This document shows positions 5,220-35,540 of a stretch of 42,814 nt of DNA, piece by piece (within the stretch, counting starts at the first letter, position 1; every line of letters starts with the position of its first letter). The notes beneath the pieces are model-generated. The model made no database searches. It had not been told where the DNA came from and was given only the letters and a program-made list of their open reading frames with translations. A program made the translations under genes and the position numbers. The DNA is from a virus: the IMG/VR virus record IMGVR_UViG_3300036719_005178, positions 1 through 42,814 of that record; one strand, given 5' to 3'.

Positions 5220-5435
5220 TTAATCTGAAAAATTTCCAGAATCGAAATCAATTTTGTTATCTAAATCAACATCAAGTTTATCAATAAAATCTTGAGGTAG
5301 GGTATTATCTTCAACAGATTTTTTTAAAACTTCATCAGGATCTACAAAAATCAATTTTTGTTTTTGCTCGTCAAAAATTAATACATATCCATCAGCAAGG
5401 ACTGTGAAATCTATTTTGAGTGATTCAAAGTCCAT
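5220..5435 (-). CDS. Small structural protein, third copy of the DGYVL...VDPD module
   Basis: A 71-residue protein consisting almost only of the module DGYVLIFDEQKQKLIFVDPD...KSVEDNTLPQDFIDKLDVDLDNKIDF, which also ends the two upstream proteins (92 and 186 residues). This copy is the most divergent and the shortest, as if the N-terminal part had been lost. It is acidic, with no Cys and no membrane segment. It has its own late-promoter motif 36 bases upstream. The module is probably a virion attachment or oligomerisation element, since one of its carriers has a fibre-type N-terminal domain; the exact role is unknown. Confidence 0.7.
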   Translation of the reverse strand: MDFESLKIDFTVLADGYVLIFDEQKQKLIFVDPDEVLKKSVEDNTLPQDFIDKLDVDLDNKIDFDSGNFSD

Positions 5436-5470
5436 ATTAGATTAAATTGAAATTTGTTTATCCTTAAAAA

Positions 5471-5478
5471 TATTTATT
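5471..5478 (-). promoter_or_regulatory. Candidate T4-type late promoter, AATAAATA
   Basis: AATAAATA on the minus strand, 36 bases before the ATG of the 71-residue gene; its first base is the last base of the preceding stop codon. Confidence 0.45.
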
Positions 5479-5756
5479 TAAAACCCGCCCCCATCAAAAT
5501 CTATTTTATTGTTCAAATCAACATCAAGTTGATCAACAAATTCTTGAGGTAATGAATCATCTTCTACAGATTTTGATAAAAGAATATCAGGATCTACAAA
5601 TGCATATTTTTTTAAGTTGTCATCATACATTAATACATATCCATCTTGAATATTATCAATATCAACATTATCCACACCACTTAAACTTTCAGGAACAGCA
5701 ATTGATGTTCTTACCTTTATTTTTGGTCTAGAAGAAATCCTAACGTTAATTGTCAT
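5478..5756 (-). CDS. Small structural protein, second copy of the DGYVL...VDPD module
   Basis: A 92-residue protein. Residues 1-35 (MTINVRISSRPKIKVRTSIAV) are basic and beta-prone. Residues 38-92 carry DGYVLMYDDNLKKYAFVDPD and KSVEDDSLPQEFVDQLDVDLNNKIDFDGGGF, nearly identical to the end of the 186-residue protein upstream. At DNA level a 67-base stretch (5515-5581) is identical to 5793-5859, showing a recent duplication or gene conversion. Its ATG shares one base with the stop of the upstream gene (TAATG) and follows AGGAGAA, so it is translationally coupled. It is likely a virion component. Confidence 0.75.
   Translation of the reverse strand: MTINVRISSRPKIKVRTSIAVPESLSGVDNVDIDNIQDGYVLMYDDNLKKYAFVDPDILLSKSVEDDSLPQEFVDQLDVDLNNKIDFDGGGF
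5515..5581. repeat. 67-bp perfect direct repeat, copy 1
   Basis: The sequence is identical base for base to 5793-5859 (offset 278). It encodes the SVEDDSLPQEFVDQLDVDL part of the shared C-terminal module. Confidence 0.9.
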
Positions 5757-6316
5757 TAAAATTCTCCTGAGTCTAAATTAATTCTATTATCTAAATCAAC
5801 ATCAAGTTGATCAACAAATTCTTGAGGTAATGAATCATCTTCTACAGATTTTGATAAAACAACATCAGGATCCACAAATATATATTTGTTTTGATTTAGA
5901 TCATACATTAAAACGTAACCATCTTGAACGTTACTAATATCAATATTTCCAAGGCCATCTAGATTACTACTATCAAGAATTCCAACGGATGTTGTTTCAT
6001 TTACAATGATATTTCCCTCTACTACTTTTCTTATTTTAGAACTACCATCTATAAGAATTAAATCATAATAATTTCTACCACTACTCAAATTTAATGTTTG
6101 AGAATTCGTTAAAGATATTTTTAATCTACCGGCACTTCTATCAACAAAAGTAATTACAAAAGGAGTATATTTTGGAGATTCTGGATATTTTCTAATTTTT
6201 GCTGCAGCAGTATAACCAACAAGATTTAATGGAGACCCATCATCTTCTGCGAGATTAAATTCTTCTTCAAAATCGGTTCCTTTATCTAACGTAAAATTGG
6301 CTGCATACGTTGCCAT
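5756..6316 (-). CDS. Structural protein: fibre-type N-terminal domain plus DGYVL...VDPD module
   Basis: The product has 186 residues. Residues 1-115 (FTLDKGTDFEEEFNL..., SPLNLVGYTAAAKIRKY, GRLKISLTNSQTLNLSSG RNYYDLILIDGSSK) follow the pattern of phage baseplate or fibre N-terminal beta-sandwich domains of the BppU type: ordered strands, 'G...A.I+', 'G.+.+.L....T..L..G.Y.YDL'. Residues about 130-186 are the DGYVLMYDLNQNKYIFVDPD and VEDDSLPQEFVDQLDVDL module shared with the next two genes. It therefore looks like the full-length ancestor of the series. It is probably an adaptor joining fibres to the baseplate; the family assignment is by pattern only. Confidence 0.72.
   Translation of the reverse strand: MATYAANFTLDKGTDFEEEFNLAEDDGSPLNLVGYTAAAKIRKYPESPKYTPFVITFVDRSAGRLKISLTNSQTLNLSSGRNYYDLILIDGSSKIRKVVEGNIIVNETTSVGILDSSNLDGLGNIDISNVQDGYVLMYDLNQNKYIFVDPDVVLSKSVEDDSLPQEFVDQLDVDLDNRINLDSGEF
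5793..5859. repeat. 67-bp perfect direct repeat, copy 2
   Basis: Partner of 5515-5581; the two diverge immediately on the 3' side (plus strand), which places the edge of the conversion or duplication tract. Confidence 0.9.
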
Positions 6317-6354: not shown

Positions 6355-6918
6355 TTATTTCTGCATTCCCAAAAATGATCGTCCATCATAGATAAGATCT
6401 TTATGAGGTCCATTTATATCAACATAATGCAAAAATGCCTGAAGATGCCATTTATTTTTAAAAGGTGGTCTCCAATGATATAAATCACATCCACGATATA
6501 AACACAAATCTCCTGGATTTAATTTAATTTCTGTTGCATTTGATTGGTCTTCATTTTCACTAAAAAAGATAGAGTTAATTTCCTCTTCTTGAGAAAATCC
6601 AAGTGCAAGAGTTGCCGATATTTCACAAGATGGACGATCCCGATGAATAACCAATTCATCATTTTCTTTGTAAAGCCTTACATAGGAATATTGAGGGGCA
6701 AGATTAATTCCAGTAATATCACTCAAAGGTTCGCAAGATTTCCCTAAAATCGTTTCAATTAATGGATCTGCATAGAAAGAATAACTAAAAGGTGCCTGAG
6801 GATCAACAACAGATTGTTGTGCATTAATTCTTACAAAAAAATATTCTTGAATAAAATTAACAAAATCCAATTCAAGAAAGTTTTCTATTACTTGGTATCC
6901 TTTTCTTTGGAAAATCAT
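6355..6918 (-). CDS. Fe(II)/2-oxoglutarate-dependent dioxygenase-like protein
   Basis: I choose ATG 6918 (MIFQRKGYQVIENFLELDF), preceded by GAGGT and placed 7 bases after the upstream stop; an upstream in-frame extension would overlap that gene. The 187-residue product has the double-stranded beta-helix layout: QYSYVRLYKENDELVIHRDRPSCE with the facial HxD (H92, D94), then LNPGDLCLYRGCDLYHWRPPF with the distal His (H148) and KNKWHLQAFLHYVD as the closing strand. Such enzymes hydroxylate proteins, nucleic acids or small molecules in the cytoplasm. It directly follows a second dioxygenase gene, and a third lies at 10134-10730, all around a collagen-like fibre gene. The substrate is unknown. Confidence 0.8.
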   Translation of the reverse strand: MIFQRKGYQVIENFLELDFVNFIQEYFFVRINAQQSVVDPQAPFSYSFYADPLIETILGKSCEPLSDITGINLAPQYSYVRLYKENDELVIHRDRPSCEISATLALGFSQEEEINSIFFSENEDQSNATEIKLNPGDLCLYRGCDLYHWRPPFKNKWHLQAFLHYVDINGPHKDLIYDGRSFLGMQK

Positions 6919-6925
6919 AATTACC

Positions 6926-7600
6926 TCACTTAAATGCGGGACCGTGAACCCAACCAACTAAAGTATATCTTGTTCCTTTAGTAACAGGTTTAACTTCGTG
7001 CAACGTATAAGATGGGAAAAAAATTATTCTGCCTCTTTTCTTTTCTATAATTGTTGGTTCTTTCCCTGTATATAAACAAAGATCTCCACCTTCATAGTCA
7101 CCTGAATCAGAAAGTTGAAGAATCAAACTCAATTTACGATTTTCTGGCACATTAGTTCCTGATATTGGATCTATATGTTTTTCATAAAAACCATTATCTT
7201 CTTCTTTATATTTTGTAAATTGAAAAGTTTCTAATTTTGTTAAATCAAATTGGAAGAATTGATCATTTATTTGATTCACCGCATCCGTAATTTTTCTGTA
7301 AATCCATTCGGTATGTTTATTGGCAAACATCCACGACAATTTGCACATACGAACATCTGAATTTACCTGACTAACATTTCCACCAACTCTTGCCAGCTCT
7401 TCTGCATATAAATTTCCAAATCTGATAATTTGATCCAATTGATCTTCACAAAAAACATCATCAATAAACGCAAAATTTTGATAATCATATCTCTTTAGGT
7501 ACCAAAAATCTTGAGTCTTATATTTAAAATCTTCTGGATCTATAATTGGTGCAATTTGATCCAAATTAAATTTAGGTGCAATAAAATATGATGAAATCAT
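6926..7600 (-). CDS. Prolyl-4-hydroxylase-type Fe(II)/2-oxoglutarate dioxygenase
   Basis: I take ATG 7600 (MISSYFIAPKFNL) as the start; a TTG two codons earlier is the alternative. In the 224-residue product the catalytic core is clear: GFYEKHIDP (H142, D144), RKLSLILQLSDSGDYEGGDL, then RGRIIFFPSYTLHEVKPV (H201) and GTRYTLVGWVHGP (R211 as 2-oxoglutarate ligand). This is the complete HxD...H...R set of the P4Hc/PKHD class, which hydroxylates proline or other residues using Fe(II), O2 and 2-oxoglutarate. The N-terminal 110 residues (FIDDVFCEDQLDQIIRFG) fit the usual helical lead-in. Context: next to another dioxygenase and 1.2 kb from a Gly-Asn-Pro collagen-like gene, a possible substrate. Confidence 0.9.
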   Translation of the reverse strand: MISSYFIAPKFNLDQIAPIIDPEDFKYKTQDFWYLKRYDYQNFAFIDDVFCEDQLDQIIRFGNLYAEELARVGGNVSQVNSDVRMCKLSWMFANKHTEWIYRKITDAVNQINDQFFQFDLTKLETFQFTKYKEEDNGFYEKHIDPISGTNVPENRKLSLILQLSDSGDYEGGDLCLYTGKEPTIIEKKRGRIIFFPSYTLHEVKPVTKGTRYTLVGWVHGPAFK

Positions 7601-7655
7601 TTTCAAAGTTTTGAGATAAAGAATATTTTTTTAAATTTTAAAGATCTTATTTTAA

Positions 7656-8237
7656 TTATTCGTAATGATTTGAAGGCCAGTCAATTTCCAAATCAAATTG
7701 GGGCAAATCTGAAGGAAATTCTACAGCATCAATTTGCGAAATTAATGCTGCTTCCAGATCAAAACACTTTTGTGTGTAGTCATTAAGAGCATTTGCAATA
7801 AAAATAATATCATTAGAAGTAAATTCTACTGTAGAATTATTGTGTTTCCAACTAAAAGTTTTTTCTGGTGATGATGCAACTATTTGCGTCTTTAAAAGAA
7901 TCGCAGTTTTTGTTCTTTCATCGGTATTAATTAAAATATTTTTATATAAAATTCCACGATTTTCTGCTTCCCATCTTTGACCCGCATATTCATTTTTAAT
8001 TGAATTCTTTGCAAATTCTAACCAGTATTCAGCAAATTCAAATGTAAATGAAAAATCTGAATCAAACTTAATCCATCCAAAATTTTCGTGGCCTGCCCAA
8101 CCCAAATCAGATAATTCTTCATCACTTAATGACTCCATTCCGTGAATATTTTCCCAATTTTCTGGTAACTTTACTGGGTGATTTAAGACCTTGTTAATAT
8201 TTCTGTCAACCAAGACATAAAAATTTTTTCTAGTCAT
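7656..8237 (-). CDS. DUF4376-like protein
   Basis: A 193-residue protein. Residues about 85-180 (RWEAENRGILYKNILINTDERTKTAILLK, TFSWKHNNSTVEFTSNDIIFIANALNDYTQKCFDLEAAL) match the pattern of DUF4376, a roughly 110-residue domain of unknown function common in phage tail-fibre loci, with 'R...E..G......I.TD..T....' followed by 'W+......+......I......Y...CF..E'. Its ATG overlaps the upstream stop (ATGA), so it is coupled to the 174-residue gene. DUF4376 proteins often accompany fibres as caps or assembly factors; this role is inferred from context. Confidence 0.7.
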   Translation of the reverse strand: MTRKNFYVLVDRNINKVLNHPVKLPENWENIHGMESLSDEELSDLGWAGHENFGWIKFDSDFSFTFEFAEYWLEFAKNSIKNEYAGQRWEAENRGILYKNILINTDERTKTAILLKTQIVASSPEKTFSWKHNNSTVEFTSNDIIFIANALNDYTQKCFDLEAALISQIDAVEFPSDLPQFDLEIDWPSNHYE

Positions 8238-8758
8238 TCTTTTACTCTTTTTCTAGTTGATCTTCTTTGTTGTGGTTTTTGAATTTCTTCTATGGATTCC
8301 TTTGTGGATTTTTGTTTAACTTGTTTTTTAAATTCTTCTTTTATTTCCTCTTTTGATGGTGGAAGTTGTTTGACTTCTTTTGCTGCTTCCAACTGCTTAT
8401 CAGATTTTTTATTTTCAGGAGAAACTTGCCAAGGAGCAGCACCTTTCCAATGAACGTGATCTATATTATCAACATCCCATCCCCTCCAAGCACTATAATC
8501 ATCTTTTGGTTTTGTTGCAACTTGAACTCCGGCAGCAGCTGCTATTTGTTCTAGCATTTCAATTGCTTCTACTGGACTCAAAATACACCATAATGAATGA
8601 TAATCACCTCTCATATTAACTTCAATTGCACCACCAAAAGCAGTTCCTACAGTAATTGAACGAGCACGATTCTTGTTTTGTTGAAGATTTGCATACTCAT
8701 TTTCTTCATACATTTGATTGATTCTTTTACGAATTGCAGTTTCTTCTTTTTTTGGCAT
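8234..8758 (-). CDS. Conserved-type phage protein of unknown function, charged C-terminus
   Basis: A 174-residue protein. Residues 1-95 look folded (ITVGTAFGGAIEVNMRGDYHSLWCILSPVEAIEMLEQIAAAAGVQVA), an alpha/beta pattern ending in a helix; residues 96-120 are Trp-rich (DDYSAWRGWDVDNIDHVHWKG). The remaining 50 residues are Lys/Glu/Gln-rich and probably disordered or helical (KEEIKEEFKKQVKQKSTKES), ending in an Arg/Lys patch (RRSTRKRVKE). No enzyme motif is visible. It lies between the collagen-like gene and the DUF4376 gene, with its own late-promoter motif 27 bases upstream. It may assist fibre assembly or bind nucleic acid through the basic tail; both are guesses. Confidence 0.65.
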   Translation of the reverse strand: MPKKEETAIRKRINQMYEENEYANLQQNKNRARSITVGTAFGGAIEVNMRGDYHSLWCILSPVEAIEMLEQIAAAAGVQVATKPKDDYSAWRGWDVDNIDHVHWKGAAPWQVSPENKKSDKQLEAAKEVKQLPPSKEEIKEEFKKQVKQKSTKESIEEIQKPQQRRSTRKRVKE

Positions 8759-8784
8759 ATCAAAAAAATAATTAAATCTTTTAC

Positions 8785-8792
8785 TATTTATT
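8785..8792 (-). promoter_or_regulatory. Candidate T4-type late promoter, AATAAATA
   Basis: AATAAATA on the minus strand, overlapping the stop codon of the collagen-like gene and 27 bases before the ATG of the 174-residue gene. Confidence 0.5.
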
Positions 8793-10098
8793 GAGTTGTC
8801 CAGGTAATTGTTACGAATCCTCCTGGAGCAACTGTAACTGGATAAGTTTGTCCTCCAGTAATCACAGATGCCAAATTAGTCGTATTTGCTGCAGATCCTG
8901 CTCCTCCAGGATTGGAACTGCCCGATCCACCAGGATTTCCTGGATTTCCTGGGTTTCCACCAGATCCAGAATTTCCTGGATTTCCACCAGATCCTGGATT
9001 TCCTGATGATCCTGGATTTCCCGGATTTCCTAATGGAGAGGGGGATTCAAAGCTAGAAAAGAAACCTGCTCCACCACCCCCACCACCTCCACCGGGGCTG
9101 AATGAACTACTACCGCCACTGCCTCCAGATCCACCAGGAAATACTCCAGGAGTACCAGATCCACCGGACGGACTCCCTCCCCCAGCAGAACCGCCAGAAC
9201 CTCCAGATCCACCAGGCCCTCCTGGACCACCCACGCCACCGGCACCACCATTTCCACCTGTACCATTATTTCCCGGATTTCCAGAATTTCCTGCTCCACC
9301 ACCCGATCCATTATTTCCTGGATTTCCTGGATTTCCAGAATTTCCAGTTCCACCAGGATTACCTGTTCCTGCAGATCCCCCTGCGCCTCCAGGAAAAATT
9401 AATCCAAATACTGATGAATTAGATCCAGTAGTTCCTGCATTTCCGGGATTTCCCGGATTTCCACCACTACCTCCTGATCCAGAATTTCCTGGATTTGCAC
9501 CAGATCCTGGATTTCCTGATGATCCTGAATTTCCTGGATTGGCACCAGATCCTGGATTTCCAGGATTACCGGGGTTTCCCGAAGATCCTGTATTACCCGA
9601 TCCTCCAGAATTTCCTGGATTTCCTGGATTTGCAGGAGTTCCACCCCTACCTCCATTGCCTCCAGATCCACCAGAACCACCAGATGGTCCACTACCAGAA
9701 CCTCCTGGATTTCCTGCACCTCCTGCGATGGATCCGCCGCGGCCAGCAGCCAGACCGCCACCGCCACCGCCACCTCCACCACCACTACCAGAATTTCCAG
9801 GGGCTCCTGACAAACCTCTATTTCCGGGATTTCCTGGATTTCCTGCATTACCACCCGATCCAGAATTTCCCGGATTTCCTGGATTTCCACCGCTACCACC
9901 ATTACCGCCTCCACCTCCTCCACCACCATTTCCTGCAGATCCAGGATTTCCAGGATTTCCTGCTCCACCTCTTCCAGAAACACTTAAAGTTCTTAATCTT
10001 GAAGGAGCAGTAAAATTTCCCGGAGCATTGAAGGTAATAGAACTCGCACGATCCATAAATCCTGGAGATCTAGATTTTCCACTGGCACCTAATGGCAT
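8788..10098 (-). CDS. Collagen-like, Gly-Asn-Pro-rich fibre/adhesin protein
   Basis: The product has 436 residues. Residues 1-40 form a short beta lead ([18 protein letters not shown]) as in phage glycine-rich adhesins. Residues about 43-400 are glycine at nearly every third position with many G-N-P triplets ([10 protein letters not shown]), GGN/GSG runs and stretches of 8-10 glycines. About 30 residues at the end ([20 protein letters not shown], then FVTITWTTQ) form a beta cap. Two folds fit: a collagen triple helix (Pro in the Y position) or a bundle of polyglycine-II helices as in T4-like gp38 adhesins. GC is much higher than in the flanks. The repetitive DNA makes the other frames long and open on both strands; these are composition artefacts. 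It is probably a receptor-contacting or spacer element of a tail fibre. Confidence 0.85.
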
Positions 10099-10123
10099 TT
10101 TAGTATTTCTTTATTTCTAAAAT

Positions 10124-10131
10124 TATTTATT
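10124..10131 (-). promoter_or_regulatory. Candidate T4-type late promoter, AATAAATA
   Basis: AATAAATA on the minus strand, 26 bases before the ATG of the collagen-like gene and just after the stop of the third dioxygenase gene. Confidence 0.5.
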
Positions 10132-10133
10132 AC

Positions 10134-10730
10134 TTAATCCAAATAAAACCAACCTGTTACAATATACTTTGATTCGTTTCCGTGAACTACATTTCCTCTG
10201 TGAGTATGAGTGTAAGCAGCTGGCCAAATTGCAATTGAATTTTCTTTGGGAGGAACTCTCAATCTTTGATATAAAAATTCAGTTTCTCCTGCACAATTTT
10301 CTCCCAATGTGTTTAGATATAAACTATAAGCCAAGATTCTATTTGCAAGATCTCCCCCATTTTGTTCAGAATGCCAAATATGATATCCGGCACCCGGAAT
10401 TGTTTTTTGCATTTTTACAGAAGTGCATCTAATTGGAAGATCTCTCAAAATATCAAATTCTGAACTATACTCATCATAACACTTTTGAAGTCCTTCCCAA
10501 AAAATAGATAAAGACGATTCATTATTAAAACTTGATAATGAATGATTTTTTAAATTCAAAAAGAGAAATTCATCTTGCTTTTTTGTCTTATCAATTTCTT
10601 CAGATTTTTGCCGATCAGATCCAACTCCAGATTGAAATAGTCTTTCAAATTCTTGTATTAAGTGATGACAAAAACCATCAGGATACACATTTTCATATAA
10701 TCCAATAAAATCTATATATTGTTTGTTCAT
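10134..10730 (-). CDS. Fe(II)/2-oxoglutarate dioxygenase-like protein with HxE facial triad
   Basis: A 198-residue protein. The core reads GAGYHIWHSEQNGG (H120, E122 replacing the usual Asp), NRILAYSLYLNTLGENCAGETEFLYQRLRVPPKENSIAIWP, then AAYTHTHRGN (distal His 175 or 177) and SKYIVTGWFYLD as the last strand. The order and spacing fit the P4H-type fold; HxE is an accepted but less common variant. The N-terminal 100 residues are helical (FCHHLIQEFERLFQSG). The gene directly precedes the collagen-like gene, so the two dioxygenases at 6355-7600 and this one bracket it. Substrate unknown; protein hydroxylation is the leading hypothesis. The low Asp-for-Glu support and lack of an obvious Arg ligand (K188 may serve) keep confidence moderate. 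Confidence 0.8.
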   Translation of the reverse strand: MNKQYIDFIGLYENVYPDGFCHHLIQEFERLFQSGVGSDRQKSEEIDKTKKQDEFLFLNLKNHSLSSFNNESSLSIFWEGLQKCYDEYSSEFDILRDLPIRCTSVKMQKTIPGAGYHIWHSEQNGGDLANRILAYSLYLNTLGENCAGETEFLYQRLRVPPKENSIAIWPAAYTHTHRGNVVHGNESKYIVTGWFYLD

Positions 10731-10744
10731 ATTTGGATATAATA

Positions 10745-13700
10745 TTATGTAAAGTTATATAGGGCGATATTACCGTACCAAGTTGTTCCATTATTTGGAG
10801 TAAAGAAGGACCAAATATCAGTTGCATTGGCAGTGGTTGTTCTTGATGGAGTTACGTTATTTGGCCATTTTACTGATGCTGGCCATACAATCGTTCTTCC
10901 TGCGGTTGTATCATTTGCCAATATTAACGTAAATGATGCAGTTCCTGAAGTTACACCTGTAGTAAATGTAAACGTACAATTACCTGTCAATGTTGCAGTA
11001 AACACGTTTCCGTTAGCTAAATTAATAGTCGCAGCAGTTCCAGTATTTCCTAATGCACTAGTAGCTTCAACATAATTTTTTAATACTGCTTTATCTAAAG
11101 TTGTTGAAGATAAATCAATTCCCGTAGAATTAATTGTAATTGCAGATCCGACTACCAAATTAGTTCCATTAAATGTTAAATTTGAAGATCCTGCAAAATC
11201 TCCAGATGATCTGTACTGAACTTGATTATCAGATCCAGCAGCATTTGAAGTGATTGTAGCCACTCCAGAAGATGCAGTAATTGATAAAGTTCCTCCATTA
11301 ACGTTAATAACTGTAAGTGCAGTGCCGACACTTACATTATTTTTTCTTAACTCTACTCCAGAAATAACGTTACTTAAACTACTACCATCACCAATAAATT
11401 TATTAGCTGTTACAATACCACTGAATGATGCTTGAGTTCCAAAGAGTGATGTTGTATGAGTTGTAATACCAGAAAATGTAGAAACTCCAGTAACATTTAA
11501 TTGTTGCGAAGTTAAATTAGTAGTACTTGTTACACCTAATGTAGTAATTCCAGAAACTGTAAGGAAAGTTGATCCAACAGAAATAGCACTAATAACATTA
11601 CTAGAATTAAAATTTGTTGCATTTACTGTCGCAAAAGTGCAAACTCCAGTAACATTTAATTGTTGTGAAGTTAAATTAGTAGTACTTGTTACACCTAATG
11701 TAGTAATTCCAGAAACTGTAAGGAAAGTTGATCCAAGAGAGACTGCAGTGAGATTTCCTGTTATATTTGGATTATTCGTAAGATCATATCCAGCACCATT
11801 GCCAACAAGAATAGTTCCCGCAACAGGAGTTGATGTTAGATTTGTACCACCTTTGTTTAAAGGAACTGGACTTGTAAGATTATTTGGATCTTGATAATAG
11901 GATCCATCTTGTCCATCTAACTTATCTGCATCAACATCACCTCCTTGGGCAGAAGTTTTAATTCTTACTGCACCATCACCATCAAAAGCAAATGTTGATT
12001 TCTTAAATTTAGAAACTCCAACGTTTGTGTAATTTACATCTCCAAGTATACCATCAACACGATTTAATTTAAGATTTACATTTCCATAGTAGGTTGTAAT
12101 CCCCGATGAAGCATCAAAAGAAGTTCCAGTAACTGTAAATGGTTCAGTAGTTCCAATTCCAACACCTTTTACAACTTTTTGGAAGGTGCTATTTCCAGAT
12201 AAAAACGTATCAATAGTAGCAGATCCACTTCCAAGACGAGTTGGTGAAATAGTTCCAGAAATAATATTAGATGCGTCAATATTAGTTCCTGAGATTACCG
12301 AATAATTACTTGCGCTTGTTGAAGAAGTATTAACTACTTTATTATATTGAACATTTTGTTTTGTAAAGGTGGCAATTCCAGATCCTGTAGATCCTAGAGA
12401 AACAGCACTTACAGACAATCCATTAATTGAAGCAAGTGCATCTCCTCTTAAACTATGCAGAGTAAACCCATTTGTAATTACAGATCCAATAAAGTAGAAA
12501 TATCCTGAAGTAAGTCCTGAAGGTAATCCTACACCTACAACTTTAACAGCATCTCCAGTAGAGTAACCGTGATTTAGTAAAGTTATAAAATTAGAGCTTG
12601 TATTTACTCCAGATCTTGTTAAAGAGTGTGTTCCAGTTCCAGTGCTGGTCAAATCAAGAATATTTAAAAGTCCATAATTTGTATAAAGTTCAACAGAAGT
12701 TATTCCAACCTTTTTAATATAATAAGTTTGATTATTCGTTAATCCTCCAATTACAGATCCTGCACCAATATTATAAATGACAGGATCTCCGTCAGAAAAT
12801 GTATTTACACCAACAATAATTCTATTTTGAGTTGTATCAATATCACTTAAAGAATTAAATGATGTAGAATACCCCACACTTATATCTGTAGATAATCCTA
12901 TAGCATCATTATCTGAAATAAAATCTGGAGATGTTATAGATGCAGCAAATTTGGTATTATTTGTTAGTTTTGTATATAATCTAGTCTCTACAGAATTAAC
13001 AGTAACAGTTGCATAATTTGTTCCACTTATTGGAACACTTGTAATTCTTAATATATCATTTGCAGCATAATTTCTCCCACCAAATACAAAATCAACATCT
13101 ATAATTTGCCCAGAAGAATTAACGGTTACATTTGCAACTGCCGATGTTCCTATACCCGTTGATGTCGCAATTGAAACATTGTTATAAGTTCCCTGCACAT
13201 AACCAGATCCACCAGATAATAGTGTACTAAGAACTAATACACCCTTAACTAATCCAGTAGTTCCGTATCCAACATTATGAGGTGTAGTTACAATTCCAAT
13301 TGCAACATTATTATTTGCAGATACAATTTGTGTACCATTTGTAAAATTATAATTTCTTGTAGAATCACTTAGAACTAGATATTGACTATCTCTATCGTTG
13401 ATTAATCTATATGTTAGAGTTCCAATTCCCGTAGATTCAACAACAAGATCTCCAGAAAGTAAATCTTTTGGTGGAACATCATCAACTAACGACAATCTTG
13501 CATCAGTTATTGTACTGATATAATATCCAGATTCTCTTGCGACAGAAATTAATTCAGAATTAATTTGTCCGGAAGAATTTAAAATAACAACTGCATTTGG
13601 TACTGAACTTGTAGATGCATTTTTATCAATAAAATCGCCAAGACGATCATTTAAAAATGTTCTTTGTGCCTTTTGTGTGCTAAGTCTATAGTCTTGAGCG

Positions 13701-16700
13701 CCACCAGGTTCGTTATCACCTAAACCAATATCAGCAGATACTTCTGTAATTTCCGGACTATTTCCAATTTTAAATTTAAGGCTTGTTAGTTCACCGATTG
13801 TAACAGTATTATTAAATATAATATTTCCAGTTCTATTAAATGCTGTAATTGCATCACCTACTTTAAAGTCACCAAGTTCATTTGTTCCTGAAGTATAAAC
13901 TCGGCCGCCCCTTTCAGATACTTGCTCTTTTGTAGAGTCAACAATTCCACCATTTTGTGGAAGTGCATTATAATCATTTCCAGATCCAACATATTCCCAA
14001 GTATGAGAAGATGAGTTAATAATACTTGGACGATGGAAATAACAGAAATAATTTTCAGGTAGAGATGATACATTTTGAATACTTTCTCCAGTTTCTGTCG
14101 TTCCAACCGTAACATCAATCGTATAATAAGATGTAATTCCAACAACAGATGTAACTGATGCTGTTTGTGGTGATGGGCTATGATCTTGAATTGTTCCTAC
14201 AGTATTAAAATCTACACCACTTTGTACTGAAACAAGAAGTTTATTAGAAGTAAATGTTACTGCATATCCAGAAGCACTAGTAAATGTTTGTGTAATTAAT
14301 CTTCCAGGAACAAAAGCATATGAACTTGAATCTAAAGTAAGTTCTTGATAATTATTATGGTAAGATGGAATATTTTCTACAAAAAATTCATTATTTGACT
14401 TCTGTAACGTATGAATACCAGAAGATGTATTAGTCAGATCAACAACTTTAGTTAAACTAATATCTTCATAAAGTTTAATGGTATTAATACCAACATAATC
14501 TACAAAATATTCTTTTTTATCCACCAATCCACCAATAGCACCAGAAGAACTTTTTATATAAAGAACTGTATCAGAATCTGTGAGATTATGAGATGTTATT
14601 GTAATTTCATTTGAAACTGTGTTAATTCCCGAAACACCATCAAAAGTGGTAGAATATCCAACACTTTTAAAAGTACCAGTTACATCTTGATAACTTTGAT
14701 TATAAAAACGAAGAACATAATTTGTTTGTTCTTTTCCACCCAAACCAACAATTTTTAAAGATTGATTTCCATCAACTACAGAATTTGCAGCAACAATTCC
14801 TCTATCAAATACAAAAGAATTTGGACTAAATCCTTTGGATCTAAGTGCATTAGTTCCAAAGTTTGTAGCAGAGTTTGTAATAGAGAGATATCCACCAGAT
14901 TCAGATAAAGATCCATCTTGGCAGAAAATTTGGAAACAAGATACTAATTGAGCATATCCATCATTAATTGCTCTATATCCAATACCACCAAAAGAAACTA
15001 GAGTAAAAGCATTTGCAACTATAGATTTTCCTTGTTCAGGAACTCCACCAATCGCAGGATTTTCTGCTTCATTTGGAATAGTTGGTGTATTTGGTGTGAC
15101 AACTTTATTCCCATCAACCAAAATTCCATTACCGCCCAAGAAAGAAATTACTGAACAATTTTGAATATATGGAGATCTTGTAATTACGGGTTTAGTATCT
15201 GTAACTGCATATCCAACTCTAGAAGTTGTTGCATCTAATGGATCATCAAATGATAAAGCATAGTCAAAAGTGTATTGGGGAACCCCACTAATAACGTAAT
15301 CTCTTAGAGTAATTCCAGACACATAGGCTCCATTACGAACCCTAAACATATCTTTTCCGGCACTTTGAGGTCTTACAATAGTATTTCTAATATTATCCCC
15401 AATAATGCTAACATCTTCATAAAGAATAATGGGATTATCTTCTACGTAATCACCAGTCTCAACAAATATTACAACTTTTCCACCTCTCTGCGATGCTAAT
15501 TGTGCTGCTTTTTTAATAGTTTGTACTGGTAAAAGAGTACCATCATTCGCATCATTTCCTTTTGTAATAGAAACATAAATTCTATTATCAAAAGCACCCA
15601 AACTAGGTGCAAAAGACAAGTTTCCAAAACCATCAGTAACAATAGATTGGCCAGCAATTCCATCTGATGTTGGATATTTTAGATTTGATACGGTTAATAT
15701 CCCAGATATATTTAATTGCTGTGTGGTTAAATTAGTAGTACTTGTAACTCCTAGTGTACTAATTCCAGATGAATTAATGTTTGTTAAAGTAGCATTGGTA
15801 CTATTCAGAGTTGTAACAGTACCAATTGTACCACTTAAGTTTGTTAAAGTAGCATTGGTACTATTCAGAGTTGTAACAGTACCAATTGTACCACTTAAGT
15901 TTGTTAAAGTAGCATTGGTACTATTCAGAGTTGTAACAGTACCAATTGTACCACTTAAGTTTGTTAAAGTAGCATTGGTACTATTCAGAGTTGTAACAGT
16001 ACCAACACCACTTACAAGAAGATTTTCATTTGTGACATTGGTTGCAGTTGTAATACCAAGAGTTGTAATTCCGGAAAAAACTTGAAGTCCATTATTGAAT
16101 GTTGCAAGTCCTACAAAAGTAGAAATACCCGTTACTTGAATATCATTGAATGTATTAGGACCATTGACAATGGAAGTTTCAATAGTTGCAATTGTTGTTG
16201 CATCAAGAGAAGTAATGTTCTGAAGTTGTCTTGCAGAACTAATAACTTGAGTATTATTAATTAAATATGCATTTGAAGATGTGACTCCAGAAATTAAAAT
16301 ATCACCAATCACGTGAAGTTTTGATGTTGCAATTGTTGTGCCAATGCCAACATTTCCTTGAGAATCAACTAGTACAACAGTTGATCCACTACCTACTTGA
16401 AATGGATTTAATGAAATATTTGTAGCAATACCAATATTACCAGCAACATAAACATCACTATTAAATGTAGAGACTCCTGCAACTTCAAAATTCGTAGTTG
16501 TTATAAGTTCATTGATGTCTAAATTGCCACTAATTTTTACATCACCTTGAGCATAAAGTGCTGTTTGACCTGTAGAAACTGGTGAACGAATATCAAGTAA
16601 AAAAGCAGGATTAGCTGTTCCAACACCAACAGACTGTCCAGATCCTGTAGGGCCTGCGATTACAGTAAAAATTGTTCCACCAGTTCCAACTCTTAATTGG

Positions 16701-16882
16701 TTAAAAACTGTTGCAATTCCAGTAATACGTGCATCAGTAGCAGCAATTCCACCTAAAACGTGAAGAGTATGATTTGGAATTGAAGTGCCGATACCAACTT
16801 TATTGGTAGTAGCATTTGCAAGAATAAGGTTTTGATTGACCTCTAGGCCATTTTTTACAACAAAATTCTTATTAATAGCCAC
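10745..16882 (-). CDS. Giant tail fibre/adhesin with beta-helix and tandem 20-residue repeats
   Basis: A 2045-residue protein. It starts at GTG 16882 (MAINKNFVVKNGLEVNQ) with GGGGA upstream; no ATG lies near. In order: VGIGT...LHV shaft repeats (residues 25-190); nearly four tandem copies of GTVTTLNSTNATLTNL... (about 290-370); a pectate-lyase-like beta-helix (NRIYVSITKGNDANDG, SIIGDNIRNTIVRPQSAGKD, SPYIQNCSV; about 435-710); beta domains with SHTWEYVGSG (about 950); GSGY modules; a second shaft with a repeated GITTLGVTSTTNLTSQQL unit (about 1720-1830); and a C-terminal domain ending WSFFTPNNGTTWYGNIALYNFT that is homologous to the end of the 1955-residue protein. It is one of the largest virion proteins here and probably a host-recognition fibre. 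Confidence 0.85.
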   Translation of the reverse strand: MAINKNFVVKNGLEVNQNLILANATTNKVGIGTSIPNHTLHVLGGIAATDARITGIATVFNQLRVGTGGTIFTVIAGPTGSGQSVGVGTANPAFLLDIRSPVSTGQTALYAQGDVKISGNLDINELITTTNFEVAGVSTFNSDVYVAGNIGIATNISLNPFQVGSGSTVVLVDSQGNVGIGTTIATSKLHVIGDILISGVTSSNAYLINNTQVISSARQLQNITSLDATTIATIETSIVNGPNTFNDIQVTGISTFVGLATFNNGLQVFSGITTLGITTATNVTNENLLVSGVGTVTTLNSTNATLTNLSGTIGTVTTLNSTNATLTNLSGTIGTVTTLNSTNATLTNLSGTIGTVTTLNSTNATLTNINSSGISTLGVTSTTNLTTQQLNISGILTVSNLKYPTSDGIAGQSIVTDGFGNLSFAPSLGAFDNRIYVSITKGNDANDGTLLPVQTIKKAAQLASQRGGKVVIFVETGDYVEDNPIILYEDVSIIGDNIRNTIVRPQSAGKDMFRVRNGAYVSGITLRDYVISGVPQYTFDYALSFDDPLDATTSRVGYAVTDTKPVITRSPYIQNCSVISFLGGNGILVDGNKVVTPNTPTIPNEAENPAIGGVPEQGKSIVANAFTLVSFGGIGYRAINDGYAQLVSCFQIFCQDGSLSESGGYLSITNSATNFGTNALRSKGFSPNSFVFDRGIVAANSVVDGNQSLKIVGLGGKEQTNYVLRFYNQSYQDVTGTFKSVGYSTTFDGVSGINTVSNEITITSHNLTDSDTVLYIKSSSGAIGGLVDKKEYFVDYVGINTIKLYEDISLTKVVDLTNTSSGIHTLQKSNNEFFVENIPSYHNNYQELTLDSSSYAFVPGRLITQTFTSASGYAVTFTSNKLLVSVQSGVDFNTVGTIQDHSPSPQTASVTSVVGITSYYTIDVTVGTTETGESIQNVSSLPENYFCYFHRPSIINSSSHTWEYVGSGNDYNALPQNGGIVDSTKEQVSERGGRVYTSGTNELGDFKVGDAITAFNRTGNIIFNNTVTIGELTSLKFKIGNSPEITEVSADIGLGDNEPGGAQDYRLSTQKAQRTFLNDRLGDFIDKNASTSSVPNAVVILNSSGQINSELISVARESGYYISTITDARLSLVDDVPPKDLLSGDLVVESTGIGTLTYRLINDRDSQYLVLSDSTRNYNFTNGTQIVSANNNVAIGIVTTPHNVGYGTTGLVKGVLVLSTLLSGGSGYVQGTYNNVSIATSTGIGTSAVANVTVNSSGQIIDVDFVFGGRNYAANDILRITSVPISGTNYATVTVNSVETRLYTKLTNNTKFAASITSPDFISDNDAIGLSTDISVGYSTSFNSLSDIDTTQNRIIVGVNTFSDGDPVIYNIGAGSVIGGLTNNQTYYIKKVGITSVELYTNYGLLNILDLTSTGTGTHSLTRSGVNTSSNFITLLNHGYSTGDAVKVVGVGLPSGLTSGYFYFIGSVITNGFTLHSLRGDALASINGLSVSAVSLGSTGSGIATFTKQNVQYNKVVNTSSTSASNYSVISGTNIDASNIISGTISPTRLGSGSATIDTFLSGNSTFQKVVKGVGIGTTEPFTVTGTSFDASSGITTYYGNVNLKLNRVDGILGDVNYTNVGVSKFKKSTFAFDGDGAVRIKTSAQGGDVDADKLDGQDGSYYQDPNNLTSPVPLNKGGTNLTSTPVAGTILVGNGAGYDLTNNPNITGNLTAVSLGSTFLTVSGITTLGVTSTTNLTSQQLNVTGVCTFATVNATNFNSSNVISAISVGSTFLTVSGITTLGVTSTTNLTSQQLNVTGVSTFSGITTHTTSLFGTQASFSGIVTANKFIGDGSSLSNVISGVELRKNNVSVGTALTVINVNGGTLSITASSGVATITSNAAGSDNQVQYRSSGDFAGSSNLTFNGTNLVVGSAITINSTGIDLSSTTLDKAVLKNYVEATSALGNTGTAATINLANGNVFTATLTGNCTFTFTTGVTSGTASFTLILANDTTAGRTIVWPASVKWPNNVTPSRTTTANATDIWSFFTPNNGTTWYGNIALYNFT
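11482..11577. repeat. 96-bp near-perfect direct repeat, copy 1
   Basis: Matches 11641-11736 (offset 159) with a single difference (TTGCGAA versus TTGTGAA). It encodes the SVGSTFLTVSGITTLGVTST and NLTSQQLNVTGV shaft unit. Confidence 0.85.
11641..11736. repeat. 96-bp near-perfect direct repeat, copy 2
   Basis: Partner of 11482-11577. A more diverged third copy of the same unit is visible at about 15711-15770. Confidence 0.85.
15779..16005. repeat. Tandem array of 60-bp perfect repeats, about 3.75 copies
   Basis: The 60-base unit beginning TTGTTAAAGTAGCATTGGTA (plus strand) occurs at 15781, 15841 and 15901 without any mismatch. A fourth copy at 15961 is identical for 45 bases. The unit length is a multiple of three, so copy number changes keep the reading frame: each copy adds 20 residues (GTVTTLNSTNATLTNL...) to the shaft. 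Confidence 0.97.
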
Positions 16883-33812: not shown

Positions 33813-33820
33813 TATTTATC
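33813..33820 (-). promoter_or_regulatory. Candidate T4-type late promoter, GATAAATA
   Basis: GATAAATA on the minus strand, 37 bases before the 1355-residue gene, overlapping the stop of the gp5-like gene. Confidence 0.5.
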
Positions 33821-35540
33821 TCTTTAGATTCACGTTCGGAGTTGCCTTTGTTGGTTCAACATAAGGAACCTCTGCAGTTGGAGTTACTGATGTTGTTTTT
33901 GCTGCAATATCTTCAACTGATTTGAGATTTGGTGTTTGTGGTTCTGGTTGTGATGCACCACCTCTTGCAAAGGTATAGTAATCAGATACTGCCACATTTG
34001 GTTTCAATTCACATCCAAAAAGATTTAATTTAAGATTTTCAAAACTTAAAGCAGAAGTCATACTTCCATCAATATTTCCAATCAATGAAGTAATATCCGA
34101 AAAAGGTCCATTCACTCCAGAAATTTGACCTTGAATATCATCAAGAAAAGTATTCACATTATTAATTAAAGTGTTGTTTGCTTCAGTTATATCATTTTTA
34201 CTAAAAGAAATTGCTTGCCCTACAATTTCTTCAGCATAACACATTGGAACATATGGATTCTTTCTTTTATCATTTGTGCTTTGTCTTGCTTGTTGTTCTA
34301 TCTTTTCTGGTTGCAATGCAGCAAGTAATAAAGATTCAATCAACCCACATAATCCTTGAGTAATTTTATTATACAAACATAGAATGAGTTCAGTAATAAT
34401 TTCTTTTATATCTGCAATCATATGTCTCATACTTGAAGGCATTGCAGAAACAATTTTAGTTAATTCTTTGTTTAATAACTTCAAAACATATTCCATAATC
34501 TTATCAAAAATTATTTTCATATATTTTGCAATAATACAAGCAGCCTTTGAAATCAGACTCATTATTTCTTTTATAATACTTGAGACTGCATCTGCATAAC
34601 ACTTAAGAGCATTCAAATACTTTGCTATTTCTTGCAGTAAATTATCTAATACAGTTTGAATAGCTTTAATTGCAGACCCAACTTTATCGTCTGGTTTTAA
34701 TAGAGGAATTCTTTCTTGATACTTGTCTTGTCTTTTTCTATCTCCAGCGGATGTTTGATGAACTGCATTTGTACTTTCCTTTGTTGCTCCTGGTTGAGAT
34801 AATGATGCTGGAGAACTTGCTTCTCTGCAACGATTTTTAATTCCTAGTGCTACTTTTTGTTGAACATAATTATCTCTTTCTGCACCAGTTAATCCTTTTT
34901 GGTCTGCCTCTGTTCTTGCACTTTGAGCATCTGCAAGTTGAGTAGGTGTAAGAGACTTATCTGAACGAAGTCCGTATTCATTTACAGAGACATTTGGTGG
35001 AGCAGGAGCACATTCTGCTGTCTGCTCTGGTGTCTTTGGTTTTACAATAACTTTCTCTTCATCAGGAACTTTTTCCTTTTTATCTCTTACCTTTGGTTCT
35101 TGAGTATTTGCAAATCCACTTTGAGGACTAAAATTCTTTCCTCCAGTGAGTGCTGTTTTATTAGATAATGCTGTTTGTGCATTATTACCCAGAACTCCCA
35201 TAATGACTGGGACTTGTTGATCCTGCCCATCAAGGAAAAATCCAAATACAAAATTTCCTTGACGAAGATTTGGAGTTTGTGATGCAGATGCTTGACCACC
35301 ACCTGCAGTCACAGGATACATCACCTGGGCCCAAGCAAGTTCTTCGGAACGAAGTGACTCCTCATCTTGATCGTGAAGACCAATAATTCTTACTTTATAA
35401 CGATATCCCCACCCAACGACACTATTTCTATCCGTAAATTTTCCCGGCAGTATGTTATCTCTCCAAGTGGAGTCATCAGCAATCTGTCCGATCCACCAAT
35501 TAAAATGTTCACCAAGAAACCCAGGGTTATATAAACTCAT
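33816..35540 (-). CDS. gp5-like baseplate hub protein with OB-fold, no lysozyme domain
   Basis: A 574-residue protein. Residues about 12-120 match the T4 gp5 N-terminal OB-fold: NWWIGQIADDSTWRDN, WGYRYKVRIIGLHDQD, LRSEELAWAQVMYPVTAGGG, then GNFVFGFFLDGQDQQVPVIM and GVLGN. T4 gp5 then has a lysozyme and a triple beta-helix; here there is instead a charged linker (about 150-290) and a long helical region (about 290-470: LLQEIAKYLNALKCYADAVS and following). The ATG shares a base with the stop of the CP12-like gene (TGATG), with GAGGA as RBS. It plugs the tail tube on the gp27-type trimer. Its lytic function seems to have moved to the SleB-bearing tape-measure proteins upstream. Confidence 0.85.
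   Translation of the reverse strand: MSLYNPGFLGEHFNWWIGQIADDSTWRDNILPGKFTDRNSVVGWGYRYKVRIIGLHDQDEESLRSEELAWAQVMYPVTAGGGQASASQTPNLRQGNFVFGFFLDGQDQQVPVIMGVLGNNAQTALSNKTALTGGKNFSPQSGFANTQEPKVRDKKEKVPDEEKVIVKPKTPEQTAECAPAPPNVSVNEYGLRSDKSLTPTQLADAQSARTEADQKGLTGAERDNYVQQKVALGIKNRCREASSPASLSQPGATKESTNAVHQTSAGDRKRQDKYQERIPLLKPDDKVGSAIKAIQTVLDNLLQEIAKYLNALKCYADAVSSIIKEIMSLISKAACIIAKYMKIIFDKIMEYVLKLLNKELTKIVSAMPSSMRHMIADIKEIITELILCLYNKITQGLCGLIESLLLAALQPEKIEQQARQSTNDKRKNPYVPMCYAEEIVGQAISFSKNDITEANNTLINNVNTFLDDIQGQISGVNGPFSDITSLIGNIDGSMTSALSFENLKLNLFGCELKPNVAVSDYYTFARGGASQPEPQTPNLKSVEDIAAKTTSVTPTAEVPYVEPTKATPNVNLKR

Follow-up and report, generated by a model that had tools for sequence, protein, structure and literature searches.

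A conserved phage gene cassette couples a predicted prolyl-hydroxylase-fold dioxygenase to a Gly-Asn-Pro-rich protein

Gene layout and conserved neighbourhood

The DNA analyzed here is a single viral contig of 42,814 nucleotides (42.8 kb; IMG/VR record IMGVR_UViG_3300036719_005178), called the window below. It carries a cassette in which three dioxygenase-like genes of the prolyl 4-hydroxylase (P4H) type, named P4H6, P4H2 and P4H1, accompany the gene of a glycine-rich protein with Asn-Pro-Gly repeats, the Gly-Asn-Pro protein (Table 1). A gene for a 2045-residue fibre protein is followed on the minus strand by those for P4H6, the Gly-Asn-Pro protein, a 174-residue protein, a DUF4376 protein, P4H2 and P4H1, with intergenic distances of -32 to 49 nucleotides (nt); the six cassette genes are thus closely spaced and stand in the order that an initial annotation had given. 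P4H1, called from a TTG at 6957, probably starts at an ATG 13 codons further in (gene 6355-6918), which would remove its overlap with P4H2.

Single genes, each taken alone, were used as baits in 2.9 million viral contigs. P4H6 retrieved 80 loci, of which 41 remained after dereplication with at least 2.5 kb of downstream sequence, and a glycine-rich gene with Asn-Pro-Gly lay within 3 kb in 40 of these 41; in the remaining one (L205) the neighbour holds ten Asn-Pro-Gly and falls slightly under the glycine threshold. The gap between P4H6 and the glycine-rich gene is 4-36 nt in 23 loci and about 580 nt, holding P4H1, in most others. In the opposite direction, the Gly-Asn-Pro protein as bait led to a P4H-family gene in all 12 dereplicated loci with both flanks, while P4H1 alone found few relatives in viral contigs. 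In a cellular control based on a DNA-pattern search, none of 79 open reading frames with an in-frame GNPGNPGN lay beside a P4H-family gene. Two apparent exceptions (L012 and L013), with 22 Asn-Pro-Gly and no oxygenase, were rejected, the contig ending within about 1.75 kb past the gene.

At least four gene orders occur: that of the window, P4H2-P4H6-(P4H1)-Gly-174aa, Gly-P4H2-P4H6 (L025, L027 and L030) and Gly-87aa-P4H6-P4H2 (L004), where Gly stands for the glycine-rich gene and aa for amino acids. Baseplate genes of the window are T4-like, and its 574-residue hub protein (33816-35540) shares 50% identity with the counterpart of Synechococcus phage S-SM2. A T4-type hub protein was present in 13 of 24 cassette records tested and an SU10 adaptor, podovirus-like, in six others without overlap, from which we infer that the cassette moved between phage types as a unit. 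That the genes stay together whichever of them serves as bait, in more than one order and in two phage types, strongly supports the view that the dioxygenases and the Gly-Asn-Pro protein are functionally linked.

Two further arrangements were seen. Many SU10-type loci carry another oxygenase of about 197 residues (PF13759, phrog_81; e.g. L198:8839-9429) directly upstream of P4H2, and a phrog_7084/DUF6065-type gene follows Asn-Pro-Gly-rich proteins elsewhere (L012:11810-12496, L019:6874-7575, L020:12963-13676).

Table 1. Cassette genes and the adjoining fibre gene in the window
Feature	Position	Strand	Evidence and remarks
2045-residue tail-fibre gene	10745..16882	-	phrog_5342 (tail fiber), E 4.6e-178; immediately precedes the cassette, 14 nt from P4H6
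P4H6, 198 residues, predicted prolyl-hydroxylase-fold 2-oxoglutarate (2OG)-Fe(II) dioxygenase	10134..10730	-	PF13640, E 3.8e-9; HxE...H...K; of the three dioxygenases, the one linked with the Asn-Pro-Gly protein
Gly-Asn-Pro-rich protein, 436 residues, proposed substrate	8788..10098	-	29 Asn-Pro-Gly; adjoins P4H6 across loci
174-residue partner family	8234..8758	-	Alignment of 36 relatives
DUF4376 tail-fibre-type gene	7656..8237	-	PF14301, E 1.7e-12; phrog_10508 tail fiber, E 5.4e-21
P4H2, predicted 2OG-Fe(II) dioxygenase	6926..7606	-	PF13640, E 4.9e-18; HxD...H...R
P4H1, third dioxygenase-like protein	6355..6957	-	phrog_2954 (labelled ferrochelatase), E 3.7e-41; HxD...H

Features of the Gly-Asn-Pro protein and of the dioxygenases

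The Gly-Asn-Pro protein contains 47 prolines, of which 39 precede a glycine and 29 lie within Asn-Pro-Gly, and its glycines recur every three residues (autocorrelation 0.51 at lag 3), in agreement with the G-x-x triplets and frequent third-position proline first noticed. When the glycine-rich core was shuffled 2000 times with glycine positions fixed, 3.3 +/- 1.7 Asn-Pro-Gly (at most 10) were obtained against the 29 observed, and the protein carries 29 of the 36 Asn-Pro-Gly found across 28 window proteins. Its proline codons are mixed (CCA 23, CCT 13, CCG 6, CCC 5), which argues against a single copied DNA repeat.

A phmmer search with this protein returned collagens only. It nevertheless scores 17.7 bits against the Pfam collagen family (PF01391), below the cut-off of 27.2, which one of its longest relatives (L025) exceeds with 106.5 bits. 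Triplet runs of 24, 21 and 13 are separated by phase breaks and poly-Gly stretches, and among the glycine-rich proteins that accompany P4H6 the longest run has a median of 10.5 triplets and reaches 92. In the AlphaFold model only residues ~11-60, 205-255 and 375-436 are confident, whereas 209 of 436 residues have a predicted local distance difference test (pLDDT) score below 50; beta strands at ~17-43, ~228-235 and ~407-435 build a beta-rich cap from both ends and the middle of the chain, with the Gly-x-x tracts between them. Our interpretation of the model is a beta cap that bears strands resembling polyglycine II, an architecture for which the gp38 adhesins are a precedent (PMC12892980). Because of the sub-threshold score, the broken runs and the predicted cap, the protein is probably not a collagen in the strict sense, and the initial label of a collagen-like fibre is correspondingly less well supported.

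Searches for relatives beyond the cassette gave little. Foldseek (E <= 0.001) found no PDB fold for a model of which about half is of low confidence, and among predicted proteins it matched the viral A0A516KZD8 (E 1.7e-8). Protein BLAST against cultured phages returned nothing up to E 10, where a low-complexity filter probably masks the query, and a profile search of cellular genomes revealed no relative. No homology to Gly_rich_2 (PF21722) was found: the profile comparison was not significant, and neither the window protein nor the L198 and L021 relatives match this family.

Richness in Asn-Pro-Gly goes with P4H6. P4H2 as bait also retrieved phages with ordinary glycine-rich tail genes nearby that hold 0-2 Asn-Pro-Gly, and the idea that P4H1 and P4H2 share the substrate has accordingly lost ground. 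In a set of 80 dereplicated loci that have both P4H2 and a glycine-rich gene, 43 combine P4H6 with an Asn-Pro-Gly-rich protein and 31 lack both, which gives 74 concordant loci against six discordant ones (five and one). Three discordant loci (L006, L010, L028) do have P4H6, beside a glycine-rich gene so long that P4H2 exceeds the distance limit, and in L205 the wrong glycine gene had been assigned. The position of proline in the Gly-X-Y triplets differs as well: in 46 P4H6-adjacent proteins with 2705 Gly-X-Y-Gly triplets, proline occupies 34.7% of Y and 1.4% of X positions and asparagine 49.5% of X, whereas in 29 proteins without P4H6 (9.4 triplets each) proline is found at 11.8% of Y and 3.7% of X. 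Bacterial collagens, which are mostly unhydroxylated, have proline at X and threonine at Y, and animal collagens have proline or hydroxyproline at Y (PMC8968730). A hydroxylase acting at Y alone would be expected to favour just such a restriction of proline to Y; the threefold Y bias of the controls indicates that the preference is partly structural.

P4H2 and P4H6 match PF13640 with 66.3 and 37.8 bits (cut-off 27), and both match PHROG 61; P4H1 has no PF13640 match above the cut-off and matches only PHROG families 2954/3531. The three HxD/E...H cores recognized at the outset, of which only P4H2 has the complete HxD...H...R set, are kept across families: H144-x-D146, H203 and R213 are invariant in 26 P4H2 sequences, H120-x-E122, H177 and K188 in 33 P4H6 sequences, and H105-x-D107 and H161 are nearly invariant across the P4H1 family. 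HxE of P4H6 aligns with HxD of P4H2 (profile comparison, probability 95%); the HxD iron motif of collagen P4Hs is thus present in P4H2 and replaced by an invariant HxE in P4H6. By sequence, the nearest solved relatives of P4H2 are PKHD-type PiuC enzymes (9ghl, E 7e-7), and a weak match to the Bacillus anthracis P4H (3itq, E 0.021) was also obtained.

P4H6 is predicted by AlphaFold to adopt a double-stranded beta-helix fold (pLDDT 94, predicted template modelling score 0.90). Its nearest PDB fold is the PBCV-1 enzyme vCPH (5c5t; E 1.7e-10, template modelling score 0.68-0.74, 18% identity over the fold alignment), followed by the Pseudomonas P4H, whose complex with EF-Tu is the third match, and human PHD2. 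Prolyl hydroxylases of proteins make up 49 of the best 50 PDB rows, the exception being 9blq (PolD), and these neighbours of the model favour a prolyl hydroxylase that acts on proteins and tell against a role in DNA repair.

Database names of the family deserve a remark. PHROG 2954/3531 and many GenBank records call the P4H1-type 2OG-oxygenase-like protein 'ferrochelatase' (window 6355-6957; L210:16318-16926; L206:9469-10239), and PF13640 is also matched by S-PM2p230, whose annotation reads 'DNA endonuclease V' (PHROGs 274/2297 type). Both names look like spreading annotation errors, and counting P4H1 by PHROG names would mislead.

The 174-residue family has the core RARSxTVGT-GG...MRG...QPVEVVELIxQLAA...DFxSWRxW and the invariant residues R31, S34, G38, P62, E64, D87, W91, R92 and W94. 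Its gene occurs in most cassette contigs and comes after the glycine-rich gene in most loci, where the stop of the latter and the next start overlap as ATGA at 53 of 90 boundaries. No match was found among 50,697 phage records, and a dedicated partner, acting as a chaperone or in assembly, is possible. Upstream, the fibre protein (10745-16882) contains four near-identical GTVTTLNSTNATLTN copies in tandem, whose number could vary. On the other side of the cassette, three adjacent genes (5220-6316) have blocks such as DGYVLM-D and SVED-SLPQEFVDQLDVDLDN in common and the largest matches fibre-assembly PHROG 3304, which suggests duplicated fibre-assembly proteins.

A candidate hydroxylation reaction and its alternatives

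It appears probable to us, with considerable room for doubt, that the cassette is a phage-encoded protein-prolyl-hydroxylation module in which P4H6 acts on Y-position proline of the Gly-Asn-Pro protein. The original suggestion was that the phage may hydroxylate proline or asparagine in its own fibre; the fold of the enzyme and the placement of proline favour proline as the residue, and the reaction itself is what we infer. After translation in the infected cell, P4H6 with Fe(II), O2 and 2OG would hydroxylate Y-position prolines of the Asn-Pro-Gly triplets, and P4H2, together with P4H1 where present, may act on these tracts as well or at additional sites. The glycine-rich protein would probably be a component of the distal tail fibre, likely of its tip, because its gene stands behind that of a large fibre protein, in the manner of gp38 and gp37 in T2-type phages. 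From its beta cap, Gly-x-x strands would extend, most likely as polyproline/polyglycine-II helices, and hydroxylation would make them stiffer and equip the surface of the adhesin with extra hydrogen-bond donors. A farther-reaching version, in which a transferable module in phages of at least two types places hydroxyproline in a polyglycine-II-like adhesin of the tail tip by means of an HxE enzyme, the Asn-Pro-Gly repeats and the enzyme having coevolved as a dedicated pair, is put forward tentatively and in our judgement falls somewhat short of probable.

Several observations weigh against hydroxylation of the Gly-Asn-Pro protein by P4H6. An HxE iron triad is unusual for prolyl hydroxylases, and by sequence alone P4H6 and the PBCV-1 P4H are not significantly similar (E 0.11). 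Among the discordant loci L019 and L020 are true exceptions, with Asn-Pro-Gly-rich proteins and P4H2 and without P4H6. Presence of P4H6 and richness in Asn-Pro-Gly change state no more than 4-5 times on the P4H2 tree, so that few events are independent and the p value of 7.6e-16 gives too strong an impression of the independent support. In a control set of glycine-rich tail proteins that lack Asn-Pro-Gly, 17 of 28 also have a gene of this oxygenase family nearby, although part of the bait had been taken from such loci. Finally, the P4H6 family extends beyond phages with the Gly-Asn-Pro protein: its genes occur in every one of nine cultured cyanophages and pelagiphages tested, and none of the nine has the GNPGNPG repeat.

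The enzymes could act on the glycine-rich protein and yet mainly on another residue, for example by beta-hydroxylation of asparagine at X, or on loops, with proline serving a structural purpose only. Asparagine fills about half of the X positions, and as it rises together with proline, composition cannot separate the two. An HxE motif occurs in some amino-acid hydroxylases, AsnO and clavaminate synthase among them; relatives of P4H2 are found with glycine-rich proteins that lack Asn-Pro-Gly, and the presence of two or three distinct enzymes in a cassette suggests that they catalyse more than a single reaction. This explanation is nonetheless unlikely given that the fold neighbours of P4H6 are prolyl hydroxylases, that proline is confined to the X-Pro-Gly position used by collagen-type P4Hs and that P4H6 presence tracks Asn-Pro-Gly rather than glycine richness. 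A true trimeric collagen fibre stabilized by 4-hydroxyproline, to which the regular glycine, the phmmer matches, the score of L025 and runs of up to 92 triplets would fit, seems just as unlikely: the window protein stays below the collagen cut-off, the median longest run is short, pure-Gly stretches and phase breaks interrupt the triplets, the confident segments of the model are drawn from both termini and the middle, as would be expected of one folded chain, and proline is nearly absent from X, unlike in animal collagen.

Slightly less improbable, though still not likely, is the absence of any enzyme-substrate link, with dioxygenases that merely travel in tail-fibre modules and target DNA repair, a host protein such as EF-Tu (bound by the Pseudomonas P4H in the third PDB match) or another fibre protein. 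In Syn9, P4H-domain genes lie beside uvsX/uvsY and a role in DNA repair has been proposed (review PMC2984593), a P4H6-family gene of S-CAM8 is located among replication genes, between dam and a clamp-loader gene, and in S-PM2, S-CAM3 and S-MbCM7 similar enzymes flank a fibre gene and a gene for about 310 residues without any Gly-Asn-Pro gene. For the P4H6 subfamily, in contrast, an adjoining Asn-Pro-Gly gene is all but universal, whatever the gene order or phage type, and simple hitchhiking predicts neither Y-only proline nor the near-absence of Asn-Pro-Gly without P4H6. The initial annotation had named dioxygenases placed elsewhere in phages lacking a collagen-like protein as an outcome that would speak against its idea, and the nine cultured phages and S-CAM8 go halfway towards this outcome for the family at large, although not for the P4H6 subfamily.

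Related systems and the wider enzyme family

As far as found, prolyl hydroxylation of a virus's own proteins is known for giant and algal viruses and not for phages. Like P4H6, vCPH of PBCV-1 is a virus-encoded P4H-fold dioxygenase; it differs in its eukaryotic algal host, its low identity to P4H6 and its HxD triad, and we know of no tight gene cassette in PBCV-1. Mimivirus, a giant virus of amoebae, likewise modifies its own collagen-like proteins, with a different enzyme family and on lysine rather than proline. The gp38 adhesins (S16, PP01, T2), which form a polyglycine-II sandwich, are encoded after a large distal fibre gene, as is the case here with P4H6 in between; the Gly-Asn-Pro protein matches them neither in sequence (phmmer) nor in fold (Foldseek, PDB), and to our knowledge neither a dioxygenase partner nor Asn-Pro-Gly repeats have been described for gp38. 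Evidence for 4-hydroxyproline in viral proteins has been reported (Eriksson 1999, cited in PMC9301287), and in Mimivirus hydroxylation and glycosylation are carried out by its own enzymes (PMC8968730). The Bacillus anthracis P4H, a prokaryotic P4H that occurs with collagen-like proteins, is cellular and hydroxylates Pro-Pro-Gly rather than Asn-Pro-Gly peptides, with Y preferred (PMC8968730). Gly_rich_2 proteins of marine phage tail genes are similarly glycine-rich, lie in the tail region and are often near the same oxygenase family, yet contain hardly any Asn-Pro-Gly. The cyanophage 2OG-Fe(II) oxygenases of PHROG 61, which in isolates share less than 40% identity with P4H6 and in S-PM2 lie on both sides of a tail-assembly chaperone gene, are filed as moron/auxiliary metabolic genes with no substrate named.

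A tail-fibre or adjacent large gene immediately precedes a P4H6-family gene in the cultured phages S-PM2, S-CAM3, Sf-CH1b and S-MbCM7, and the next genes are that for about 310 residues and a second oxygenase. In S-PM2 (L210:9806-12143) the protein of about 310 residues is a tail-assembly chaperone (phrog_4697, E 2.8e-121); its gene has a P4H-type gene on either side, and the group comes just after a gp12-type fibre gene, which makes this isolate a convenient test system for fibre modification. Fibre modification may be a common role of the family, with the Gly-Asn-Pro cassette as its clearest case; the position in S-CAM8 and the proposal for Syn9 indicate that not all members need share it. 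Of 22 cassette records tested, which may be fragments, four contain psbA, so that some cassette phages infect cyanobacteria. The chemistry needs only O2, iron and 2OG, and a photosynthetic host, initially invoked as one in which O2 and 2OG are available, is less well supported as a requirement.

Few unexplained genes are as common in cyanophages as those for 2OG-Fe(II) oxygenases, which are usually listed as auxiliary metabolic genes. The open literature, with subscription journals mostly outside the scope of the search, yielded discussions of viral prolyl hydroxylases and collagens for algal and giant viruses and mentions of phage-type P4H as cryptic, but no phage enzyme-substrate cassette; a survey of 2022 calls the viral use of prolyl 4-hydroxylase cryptic (PMC9301287). 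The occurrence of the cassette in many uncultured freshwater and marine phages suggests that phages hydroxylate prolines in a protein of their own, and, by naming a concrete candidate substrate, it makes the question accessible to mass spectrometry and to co-expression in E. coli. If the proposal is true, the cassette would be a compact hydroxyproline-making system and would provide, as far as found, the first hydroxyproline in a phage protein; phages would then modify their own fibre hardware post-translationally, which would add a new layer to adsorption biology.

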